Below, piece by piece: positions 34,148 through 35,739 of a stretch of DNA of 64,000 bases. The stretch comes from Aridibaculum aurantiacum (GTDB lineage Bacteria > Bacteroidota > Bacteroidia > Chitinophagales > Chitinophagaceae), in the NCBI RefSeq assembly GCF_017355875.1, contig NZ_JAFEWC010000004.1, positions 76,989-140,988 on the forward strand. The letters are read 5' to 3'. The notes beneath the pieces are model-generated. The model made no database searches. It saw only the letters and a list, made by a program, of their open reading frames with translations, and was not told where the DNA came from. Both the position numbers and the translations under genes were made by a program. Within the stretch, counting starts at the first letter, position 1; each line of letters begins with the position of its first letter.

Positions 34148-34618
34148 TTACTGGTTGGTAACCACTACATTTCTGTTGAAGCTTTCTTCAAGCGAGATAA
34201 ATGTTTCGGTTCGTTCTATGCCTTTTATCTTTTGCAGTTCATCGTGCAACACATGGCGCAGCTGGTTGATATCTTTACAAACAATTTCAGCAAACATGCT
34301 ATAATTGCCCGTGGTATAATTTAACCGCACGATCTGCGGGATCTTCGTCAGCTCTTTTACAACAACGTCGTACAACGAACTTTTCTCGAGGTAGATACCT
34401 ATGAAGGCAATCACATCGTAGCCTAAAAGCTTCAGGTCTACATTGAGACGTGTACCTTTAACGATGCCCATTTCCTGTAGCTTTTTAATGCGCACATGAA
34501 TGGTACCGCCCGAAACATACAGTTTCTTTCCAAGGTCAGCATAAGAAATCTCGGCTGTTTCCATCATTTCATAAATGATCTGGTAGTCGAGTTTGTCAAG
34601 ATTAAATTTAGCAGCCAT
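34148..34618 (-). CDS. Lrp/AsnC family transcriptional regulator
   Basis: The 156-residue protein has an N-terminal helix-turn-helix (DKLDYQIIYEMMETAEISYADLGKKLYVSGGTIHVRIKKLQE, residues about 7-50) and a C-terminal RAM domain with the GNYSMFAEIVC strand. Lrp-type regulators respond to amino acids. It lies 23 nt upstream of the Wzz-like gene on the same strand and might be its operon partner, but it is also the gene next to the tRNA-like RNA array on the other strand. Confidence 0.9.
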   Translation of the reverse strand: MAAKFNLDKLDYQIIYEMMETAEISYADLGKKLYVSGGTIHVRIKKLQEMGIVKGTRLNVDLKLLGYDVIAFIGIYLEKSSLYDVVVKELTKIPQIVRLNYTTGNYSMFAEIVCKDINQLRHVLHDELQKIKGIERTETFISLEESFNRNVVVTNQ

Positions 34619-34760
34619 TTCAAAAACCTTTATTTGATAAATTTCATCATCAGAAGCAAATATTTGATGATTTTCTAAACTTTCAAAATATTTATTGAAT
34701 TATTTCTTCTATTTCAGCTGTTCAGCCTAACATTGCAATACAAAGTTCTTATACAAACAC
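34619..34760. other. Leader region of the tRNA-like array
   Basis: AT-rich sequence without a gene. The three RNA units are each preceded by a similar GTTCTT...A(C/T)A segment just before the acceptor stem, but I cannot point to a clear promoter. Confidence 0.4.
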
Positions 34761-34931
34761 TGTGGGGTGATGAAATTTTTGGCAGACATGCCCTCTTGTC
34801 TCGGGGGTGAGGATAACAGGATAAACTAAGCGTAGAGCCGACTGGAACTTGCGTTCGGCCGACCAGGGTTGACCACTAAACTTTGCGCCATTGCTAACTG
34901 CCTCGTGGAGGTTCGATCCCTCCCCCTACAG
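34761..34931 (+). ncRNA. tRNA-like RNA with a giant variable region, unit 1
   Basis: The unit folds as a tRNA at its ends. The acceptor is TGTGGGG with CCCTACA (34924-34930), giving 7 bp with one G-T. The D arm is ATG...CAT with GG in the loop. The anticodon-like arm is CCCTC-TTGTCTC-GGGGG (34791-34807). The T arm is GGAGG-TTCGATC-CCTCC (34907-34923). The variable region (34808-34906) is 99 nt, against about 24 at most in ordinary tRNAs. It contains TGAGG...CCTCG closing pairs and an internal stem (GCCGA / TCGGC). The triplet at positions 34-36 would be GTC, but position 37 is a pyrimidine, so decoding is doubtful. No complete CCA is encoded. Confidence 0.75.
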
Positions 34932-34937
34932 CAAATT

Positions 34938-35002
34938 GATTTTAGATTTAAAGATTGCGGATTGAAGATTTACTCTCAATCTTAAATCATCAATCTAAAA
35001 TC
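34938..35002. repeat. AT-rich inverted repeat between units 1 and 2
   Basis: GATTTTAGATT (34938-34948) pairs with AATCTAAAATC (34992-35002), with a second internal 11-bp stem containing one mismatch. The spacer after unit 2 (35191-35255) is nearly identical. Confidence 0.7.
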
Positions 35003-35021
35003 TACAATGTTCTTTAAATAC

Positions 35022-35184
35022 TGTGGAGTGATGAAATTTTTGGCAGACATGCCCTCTTGTCTCGGGGGTGAGGATTATAGGATAAACGAAGCGTAATGCC
35101 TTTCGAAAGAAAGACTGGGGTTGACCACCGCTACATTGCACTTTGGCTAACTACCTCGTGAAGGTTCGAGCCCTTCTTCCACAG
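35022..35184 (+). ncRNA. tRNA-like RNA with a giant variable region, unit 2
   Basis: Same architecture as unit 1, 163 nt. The first 50 or so bases after the acceptor are identical to unit 1, while the acceptor and T stems change in compensating ways. The acceptor is TGTGGAG with TTCCACA (7 bp, one G-T) and the T arm is GAAGG-TTCGAGC-CCTTC (35160-35176). The variable region (35069-35159) is 91 nt and holds a CTTTC-GAAA-GAAAG hairpin with a GNRA loop, flanked by GTAATG / CATTGC pairing. The compensating differences argue for a selected RNA fold. Confidence 0.75.
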
Positions 35185-35190
35185 CAAATT

Positions 35191-35255
35191 GATTTTAGAT
35201 TTCGTGATTGCGGATTGCAGATTTACTCTCAATCTTAAATCATCAATCTAAAATC
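35191..35255. repeat. AT-rich inverted repeat between units 2 and 3
   Basis: GATTTTAGATT (35191-35201) pairs with AATCTAAAATC (35245-35255). It is a near copy of the spacer after unit 1. Confidence 0.7.
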
Positions 35256-35274
35256 TACAATGTTCTTTACATAC

Positions 35275-35436
35275 TGTGGAGTGATGAAATTTTTGGCAGA
35301 CATGCCCTCTTGTCTCGGGGGTGAGGATCATAGGATAAACGAAGCGTAATGCTTTCCGTAAGGAAGACTGGGGTTGACCACCACACATTGCACTTTGGCT
35401 AACTACCTCGTGAAGGTTCGAGCCCTTCTTCCACAG
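35275..35436 (+). ncRNA. tRNA-like RNA with a giant variable region, unit 3
   Basis: 162 nt, closest to unit 2. Acceptor and T arm are identical to unit 2. The variable region (35322-35411) is 90 nt and its internal hairpin has changed to TTTCC-GTAA-GGAAG, again closed by a GNRA loop but with different stem bases. The GGATAAACGAAGCG and GGGGTTGACCAC segments are conserved among the units. A different AT-rich hairpin and then an intrinsic terminator follow, marking the end of the transcript on this strand. Confidence 0.75.
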
Positions 35437-35461
35437 CAACAGCTATTTGGAAATTTTGAGA

Positions 35462-35503
35462 TTTTGTGATTTTGAGATTTTATTCAATCTCAAAATCACA
35501 AAA
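35462..35503. repeat. Perfect 18-bp hairpin after unit 3
   Basis: Bases 35462-35479 and 35486-35503 are exact reverse complements around a 6-nt loop. It takes the place that the AT-rich spacers have after units 1 and 2, but with different sequence. Confidence 0.75.
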
Positions 35504-35535
35504 TTCCAAGATCAGCAATTACCTCTTGTTTTCTT

Positions 35536-35575
35536 AGCCCGTAACTTCTCATGTGTGTTAGTTGCGGGCTTTTTT
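35536..35575 (+). terminator. Intrinsic terminator of the tRNA-like array
   Basis: AGCCCGTAACT (35536-35546) pairs with AGTTGCGGGCT (35560-35570), one wobble, followed by TTTTT. There is no gene between the array and this hairpin, so it most likely ends the array transcript. Confidence 0.75.
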
Positions 35576-35739
35576 GTGCTTCCAATGTTTTAGTCAACTC
35601 TACTTGTAACTCCTGTATTGCATTTACTTACTGCTATTTTAAGTCTTCTTCCTGTTCTTACAGAACCACACGGCATAAGATTTTTATTATATGAACCTTT
35701 CCGACCCATCACCTTTCTTAGTTCATAAATCTATACCTT

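Follow-up and report, generated by a model that had tools for sequence, protein, structure and literature searches.

What would a bacterium use a tRNA-shaped RNA for, if not for decoding? The question is raised by the window analysed here, a stretch of 64,000 nucleotides from Aridibaculum aurantiacum, in which three tRNA-like units follow one another on the forward strand, divergent from the gene of a regulator of the Lrp/AsnC family (Table 1). Our analysis indicates that they belong to a widespread, tRNA-derived RNA class that none of the searches carried out here could name and that is well supported as a class. Its function has to be inferred. The reading that we prefer, and in which we have moderate confidence, is that of a dedicated carrier RNA, controlled by AsnC and not used in decoding, on which asparagine would be made by AspRS and GatCAB; both the charging and the amidation are inferences.

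Three units, their fold and their distribution

In each of the units the acceptor is of 7 bp, and the D stem, of 3 bp, closes a loop containing GG. A 5-bp stem carries the anticodon loop TTGTCTC, and the 3' half has a 5-bp T stem with TTCGA, followed by a G. The CCA end is not encoded after this G73 in the window units. By subtraction, the variable regions of units 1, 2 and 3 measure 99, 91 and 90 nt. A preliminary description of this DNA had proposed precisely this, three tandem tRNA-like units with variable regions of 90–99 nt, and both its coordinates and its arms were borne out, as were the compensating changes that it had noticed in the acceptor and T stems between unit 1 and units 2 and 3. 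Its estimate, a variable region at least four times as long as the usual maximum, is roughly correct for the three window units; the family also has shorter members, with whole RNAs down to 109 nt. A DNA search located only these three copies in the 4.86-Mb genome of the host. The two spacers are similar long hairpins, possibly processing signals. A terminator-like hairpin might mark the end of an array transcript, although a simple terminator scan, which permits loops of 3–8 only, listed none after unit 3; transcription of the array is itself an inference.

Table 1. Positions of the features of the array in the window, and of examples of a second tRNA-like family on phage contigs.
Feature	Position	Strand	Details
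AsnC-type (Lrp/AsnC family) regulator	34148-34618	-	156 aa; gene and RNA array divergent
-7-like promoter element TAACATTG	34728-34735	+	precedes the array; no TTG at the corresponding spacing
tRNA-like RNA unit 1	34761-34931	+	171 nt; covariance-model score 138.8 bits
Unit 1, loop TTGTCTC	34796-34802	+	
Unit 1, GUC	34798-34800	+	
Unit 1, variable domain	34808-34906	+	
Inter-unit spacer 1, long hairpin	34932-35021	+	90 nt; z = -4.89, 0/200 shuffles as stable
tRNA-like RNA unit 2	35022-35184	+	163 nt; 138.1 bits
Unit 2, variable domain	35069-35159	+	
Inter-unit spacer 2, long hairpin	35185-35274	+	90 nt; z = -6.22, 0/200 shuffles as stable
tRNA-like RNA unit 3	35275-35436	+	162 nt; 138.1 bits
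Unit 3, variable domain	35322-35411	+	
Terminator-like hairpin then T run, possible end of array transcript	35536-35575	+	35530-35580: -17.6 kcal/mol, z = -4.80, 0/200 shuffles as stable
Second phage family, contig L034	4343-4706		
Second phage family, contig L041	1409-1512, 1224-1347		
Second phage family, contig L056	5274-5435		
Second phage family, contig L069	1311-1403		
Second phage family, contig L076	5808-5915		
Second phage family, contig L083	6000-6120		

ARAGORN found 0 tRNAs in the window and Rfam 0 gathering matches, without any RF00005 or RF00023 call; even at E ≤ 10 the region 34700-35500 gave no tRNA match, just weak unrelated ones, and neither program called a tmRNA for the window units. 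The earlier statement that no named family has this layout therefore stands as far as Rfam and ARAGORN are concerned, and we did not recognise any earlier description of the RNA in the open-licence PMC literature, among the matches listed. Like tmRNA, the RNA combines a tRNA-like end with a large extra domain, and some phage stretches contain both, but it differs from tmRNA in having D and anticodon arms and in carrying the extra domain in the variable arm. An intron-containing tRNA was also considered and could be ruled out, since the extra domain has covarying helices of its own and the anticodon arm is intact.

The folding energy of the single sequences lends no support to the structure (z = +0.73, -0.39 and -0.03 for units 1–3), and the evidence for a selected fold, which had also been proposed beforehand, is comparative. 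As had been suggested, a covariance model was built and used to search for homologues, and members of the family were found across Bacteroidota. This model, R1, has 148 positions and 34 pairs and derives from 56 host and phage units. Over these 56 units, 25 of the 34 consensus pairs show two-sided compensatory change, and 96.8% of the pairing cells are paired versus a shuffled mean of 79.4%, a value of 96.8% being reached in 0/500 shuffles. With the partner strand slid, 42–57% of the cells pair, and the covariation score was 0.533 vs 0.185. The structure was derived from the MAFFT alignment, which had itself been made without being fitted to it.

The canonical tRNA features are present in the family (cloverleaf stems of 7/3/5/5, U8, T loop TTCGA), and its core is of the tRNA-Leu type. 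With tRNA-Leu, a class II tRNA, the RNA shares the 3-bp D stem, A14 and a long variable arm, but it differs in its G73, GUC and U1:A72, in its non-decoding loop and in a variable arm about 2 to 6 times longer. This arm begins with a 5-bp stem, followed by 3 pairs and an internal loop that is asymmetric; beyond these come a covarying helix and the terminal loop, which contains GGGTTGACCAC. A relaxed form of this motif is present in 99 of the 120 host units, and an extra side hairpin is found in many units from hosts of the window's family. The size of the whole RNA is 109–199 nt in hosts (n=120) and 117–169 nt in phages (n=54).

A DNA search with unit 2 at E ≤ 0.1 gave matches in 38 of 59 genomes, the genome of origin included, two of the 38 matching at E > 0.01 only. 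The R1 scores fall in two groups, one of about 65–153 bits that corresponds to the family and another of 60 bits or less made up of 81–86-nt matches, which are taken as ordinary tRNA-Leu from their size and, for such matches on phage contigs, also from ARAGORN. There is an R1 match at E < 1e-15 in 103 of the 147 genomes of the window's family; at 1e-15 the figures were 53 of 296 for the class and 40 of 394 for the phylum (these sets overlap). Of the 40 phylum genomes, three belong to other classes, and two of these have three closely spaced copies. A pattern scan over named genomes gave at least 120 loci. The 80 matches listed were all labelled Bacteroidota and included the genera Chitinophaga, Segetibacter, Ferruginibacter, Dyadobacter, Cyclobacterium, Pedobacter and Algoriphagus, and also Saprospiraceae. 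The matches include strains of Dyadobacter fermentans and Chitinophaga pinensis. As the scan pattern contains the anticodon, these loci were left out of the counts of base conservation given below. The RNA family is thus widespread but patchy in Bacteroidota, a conserved class that escapes Rfam 15 and ARAGORN.

The AsnC-type neighbour

The regulator facing the array has the Pfam domain PF01037 (E=5.5e-16) together with an AsnC-type HTH. Its best NCBIfam model is PRK11179 AsnC, with 155.9 bits, under the cut-off of 227 for that model, and its best solved structure is E. coli AsnC (2cg4, E=1.1e-31), with 41% identity to E. coli AsnC over 145 aa. At all 20 loci of the window's family (19 relatives plus the window) the array is located directly upstream of the AsnC gene and divergent from it, the next commonest neighbour cluster appearing at 14 of the 21 loci compared. 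AsnC is absent beside the RNA at L108, the one compared locus from another family. In larger sets, which may share species, an AsnC homologue is divergently adjacent in most cases (61 of 85 model-found loci, window included, and 85 of 120 named loci); none was found in any other orientation across both sets, and there was none within the fetched flank at 24/85 and 35/120 loci. We also considered whether the host copies stem from mobile elements or prophages; this is not supported for the window's family, where the AsnC-facing place is constant.

In the window's family, an AsnC orthologue (75–92% identity) was detected in 14/14 genomes with the RNA vs 1/14 without it. The exception, G062, has kept AsnC facing a gene of a neighbour cluster that we take to be trmB-like, with no RNA between them. 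At this apparent empty site (L509, G062:C324:7000-12000) about 116 bp separate asnC from the next divergent gene, and its AsnC is 77% identical to that of the window, yet there is no RNA.

The gene that asnC faces in E. coli is asnA, for asparagine synthetase A. The likeness is that there too an AsnC-type regulator faces an asparagine-making gene, the position of asnA being held here by the RNA array. A promoter pattern of Bacteroidota type (TTG-N18..22-TANN[AT]TTG), sought within 110 nt upstream of the RNA and chosen after looking at some of the sequences, appears in 68 of 141 intergenic regions, versus a shuffled mean of 3.1 (maximum 11) and 9 for the antisense. That AsnC controls the RNA in response to asparagine supply is inferred, without binding data.

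Invariant bases and the distribution of GatB

The base counts rest on 120 units of hosts, which the covariance model located at 96 loci and which were not de-duplicated. GUC at 34–36, C38, G73, U1:A72, G2:C71, U8 and G9 were each observed in 120/120 units. The rule for decoding tRNAs, U33 and a purine at 37, is not met by the family, as position 33 is T in 90, C in 26 and G in 4 (not T in 30/120) and position 37 is T in 115, G in 4 and C in 1 (a pyrimidine in 116/120). The pyrimidine at 37 had already led the preliminary description to doubt a normal decoding tRNA, a doubt that these counts reinforce. G10 is not kept, the 10:25 pair being A-U in 98/120. Among 54 phage units, 47 of them distinct, GUC was found in 53, U1:A72 in 51 and G73 in 52, with A replacing C at position 38 in seven. 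R1 was trained on GUC members, so that distant members with another anticodon could be missed; the positions beside GUC do vary.

PMC9976931 gives bacterial aspartate identity as G73, G10, G34, U35, C36 and C38, and describes G1-C72 and G2-C71 as strictly conserved in bacterial tRNA-Asp. The RNA meets this set at G34 U35 C36, C38, G73 and G2:C71, as tRNA-Asp does, and departs from it at G10, mostly replaced by A10, and at G1:C72, replaced by U1:A72, besides having a class II body and a pyrimidine at 37. U1-A72 is the pair recognised by bacterial GatCAB, according to PMC4206432. In the host, the ordinary tRNA-Asp has GUC with G1:C72, and tRNA-Asn has U1:A72. The RNA, having both GUC and U1:A72, joins the aspartate anticodon to the amidation mark, which neither of these two tRNAs does.

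An odd but working tRNA-Asp, reading GAC and GAU codons, would also have GUC and G73 in all 120 host units. We regard it as quite improbable, with C or G at position 33 in 30/120 units, a pyrimidine at 37 in 116/120 and an ordinary tRNA-Asp(GUC) in the same genome; moreover, U1:A72 could let GatCAB yield Asn at Asp codons.

Under the carrier reading that we prefer, an RNA derived from tRNA-Leu would be loaded with aspartate by the ordinary AspRS, reading GUC, C38 and G73, after which GatCAB, reading the U1:A72 that real tRNA-Asp lacks, would convert the aspartate to asparagine on the RNA. Both steps are inferred from the identity bases and from the co-occurrence described below. Since the RNA has the anticodon of tRNA-Asp, a discriminating AspRS of the ordinary kind would suffice. 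In the ribosome, a GUC RNA loaded with Asn would place Asn at Asp codons; the anticodon loop, with a pyrimidine at 37 in most units and a position 33 that is not always U, would together with the large variable arm bar it from there, an exclusion that we infer from positions 33 and 37. The asparagine would then be released from the RNA, again by inference, and the facing AsnC-type regulator would tune the amount of RNA to the asparagine supply. Several features count against the carrier reading. G10 is lost and G1:C72 replaced, both of them aspartate-tRNA features, and, since the tRNA-Asn of the host has U1:A72, GatCAB could act there if the AspRS were non-discriminating. The D loops of the family, of class II type and longer still in many phages, weigh neither way; the rule that GatCAB substrates have a D loop without extra bases comes from other phyla.

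A tRNA-dependent synthesis of asparagine, in which a non-discriminating AspRS and GatCAB act on tRNA-Asn, is described for Bdellovibrio, Deinococcus and Thermus in PMC4206432. The situation here would be alike in the two enzymes (by inference), in the presence of GatB beside AsnRS and GlnRS and in the U1:A72 of the RNA. However, the carrier in that route is the decoding tRNA-Asn and the AspRS must be non-discriminating, whereas a separate RNA with the aspartate anticodon could be loaded by an ordinary AspRS, leaving decoding untouched.

Because U1:A72 points to GatCAB, co-occurrence of the RNA with GatB, the only GatCAB subunit searched, was predicted before the search. The genomes, 40 with the RNA and 40 without it, were picked from the R1 tables before any GatB result. 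GatB was observed in 40/40 genomes with the RNA vs 6/40 without it (Fisher p=1.7e-16), and within the window's family in 27/27 vs 2/33. AsnRS was over the cut-off in 79 of the 80 genomes, including all 40 with the RNA, and GlnRS was present in 72 (37/40 with and 35/40 without the RNA). When only genomes having both AsnRS and GlnRS are considered, GatB appears in 37/37 with the RNA vs 2/34 without it (p=3.5e-18), so that in those 37 there is no obvious usual job for GatCAB. These p-values ignore shared ancestry. GlnRS is missing in four of the six RNA-free genomes with GatB, which can explain their GatCAB; the other two (G069 and G146) have GatB, GlnRS and AsnRS and are unexplained, although a diverged RNA could have been missed there given the strict filters with which R1 was run. 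In one same-genus pair both traits differ together, G019 having RNA and GatB and G133 neither, and in another (G066/G146) the RNA alone differs. The passed prediction supports the carrier role without demonstrating it, and this role remains an inference.

Three genomes with the RNA, G042, G463 and G800, have no GlnRS, and in them GatCAB may serve both tRNA-Gln and the RNA. One of them also has, beside a normal AsnRS, an AsnRS-like open frame of 346 aa (G463:C2:595933-596853) that at 167.9 bits falls below the cut-off.

Binding alone would yield the same invariant bases and the same co-occurrence. The RNA could then be a regulator or decoy that binds AspRS, GatCAB or both, switched on by AsnC to restrain charging or amidation, and the conserved variable arm, with the relaxed GGGTTGACCAC motif in 99/120 units, looks like a further binding site. 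We consider this unlikely, if not to be dismissed. Among genomes having AsnRS and GlnRS, those without the RNA hardly ever have GatB (2/34), and GatCAB would then be kept just for inhibition; besides, G73 and a paired acceptor stem are retained throughout.

AsnB was tried as a linked partner and rejected, as it was over the cut-off in 34/40 genomes with the RNA vs 37/40 without it (p=0.48), a lack of association that argues against the RNA being generally the sole source of asparagine. In the genome of the window, three of the four AsnB-like genes are located among polysaccharide genes and one is not. With AsnB-family genes in 34 of the 40 genomes that have the RNA, no need for free asparagine is apparent, and the loaded RNA might instead donate its Asn or Asp elsewhere, for example to a lipid, peptide or precursor of the cell wall. 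Aminoacyl-tRNAs have established non-ribosomal uses, which counts in favour of such a donor. It still seems improbable to us, because besides AsnC there is no constant neighbour (the next cluster reaches 14/21 loci), although a transferase encoded elsewhere is not excluded.

Phage copies and the meaning of the family

With a pattern free of the anticodon, consisting of the variable loop and the T arm, 53 IMG/VR contigs were retrieved. R1 exceeds 100 bits in 52 of them (one cut by contig end), and in the remaining contig, L044, it gives 76 bits with a broken anticodon part. The phage nature of L050 and L040 is confirmed by portal and terminase large subunit genes, and that of L034 by a phage DNA polymerase; of the 10 proteins scanned, three, encoded by L045 and L070, did not match any PHROG. 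Searching a collection of isolated phages with four unit queries gave a single match, at 75% identity, in the 636-kb uncultured phage record LR756504.1. GatB was found in 14 records of the phage collection, and the labels of the ten listed name other hosts, no host or human faecal phages. The phages would carry the RNA as an auxiliary metabolic RNA, a use that is inferred.

ARAGORN was run on 53 phage stretches (50 of the 53 pattern contigs and three others), and at least one tRNA or tmRNA gene was called in 39. It called tmRNAs in these stretches but never the RNA units described here. A tmRNA gene, with varied tag peptides, is found in 18 of the 53 stretches with or near the RNA (e.g. L035, L043, L045, L047, L048, L051 and L052). 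The frequent vicinity of tRNA and tmRNA genes is what could be expected of anticodon-nuclease decoys or of attachment sites for integrating elements. We find this reading of the phage and host copies hardly credible, as it leaves unexplained the link with GatB and AsnC and the invariant U1:A72, and host copies keep a constant AsnC-facing place in 20/20 loci of the window's family.

The loop after GGGTTGACCAC is present in 27 of 28 phage representatives, and in 25 of these 27 it contains a perfect palindrome of at least 8 nt (shuffled mean 3.6, maximum 11). The palindromes have many sequences, e.g. GTTGCAAC, AGCCGGCT, GCTAGCTAGC and GCTGCAGC. A palindrome of this kind was also found in 13 of 18 long phage D loops (mean 2.0, maximum 8), and in a control stretch in 0/28. 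Not all the cases are independent, since related phages share some. As a gapless palindrome cannot close fully as a hairpin, it is most simply read as a site of contact between two copies, which suggests that the phage copies may dimerise through these self-complementary loops, the dimers themselves being inferred. ROOL and GOLLD are homo-oligomeric RNAs; as regards such multimers, the palindromic loops of the phage copies are the only sign here. In the variable loops of hosts, palindromes of at least 8 nt appear in 7/47 (shuffled mean 3.8, maximum 10) and of at least 6 nt in 14/47 (shuffled mean 14.0). Host loops are thus not clearly enriched, and dimerisation is proposed for the phage copies only.

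The phage contigs contain a second tRNA-like family (examples in Table 1). Its 5' part, with an AGTCAGG acceptor and a Leu-type D arm, is nearly constant; its 3' part is formed by a T arm, CCTGACT and usually A, and the hypervariable insert between the two lacks a normal anticodon arm. The whole RNAs are mostly of about 84–165 nt. The 5' part was detected in at least 120 IMG/VR contigs and the strict 3' pattern at 67 of the 117 places examined. This second family looks like a natural tRNA scaffold with a variable cargo.

Taken at its broadest, the proposal is that of a new metabolic RNA, a tRNA-shaped cofactor outside translation that would act as an asparagine scaffold in many Bacteroidota and their phages, at the place of asnA and under AsnC, and whose phage form would di- or polymerise by palindromic contacts of the D loop and the variable loop. 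In this full form we advance it only tentatively, as possible rather than probable. According to PMC4206432, GatCAB persists in many bacteria that have both AsnRS and GlnRS (its Table 2 gives 67 genera), a puzzle to which the carrier reading offers an answer; Bacteroidetes are named there among the 18 without Asn synthetase. With a candidate RNA, one transcript and two purified enzymes would be enough to put the puzzle of the retained GatCAB to the test. Independently of its role, the RNA is a widespread and strongly conserved class, carried by phages as well, that Rfam 15 and ARAGORN miss. If the carrier reading is true, a tRNA derivative would have been recruited as a dedicated cofactor of amino acid biosynthesis, with changes in its own anticodon loop that bar it from decoding.
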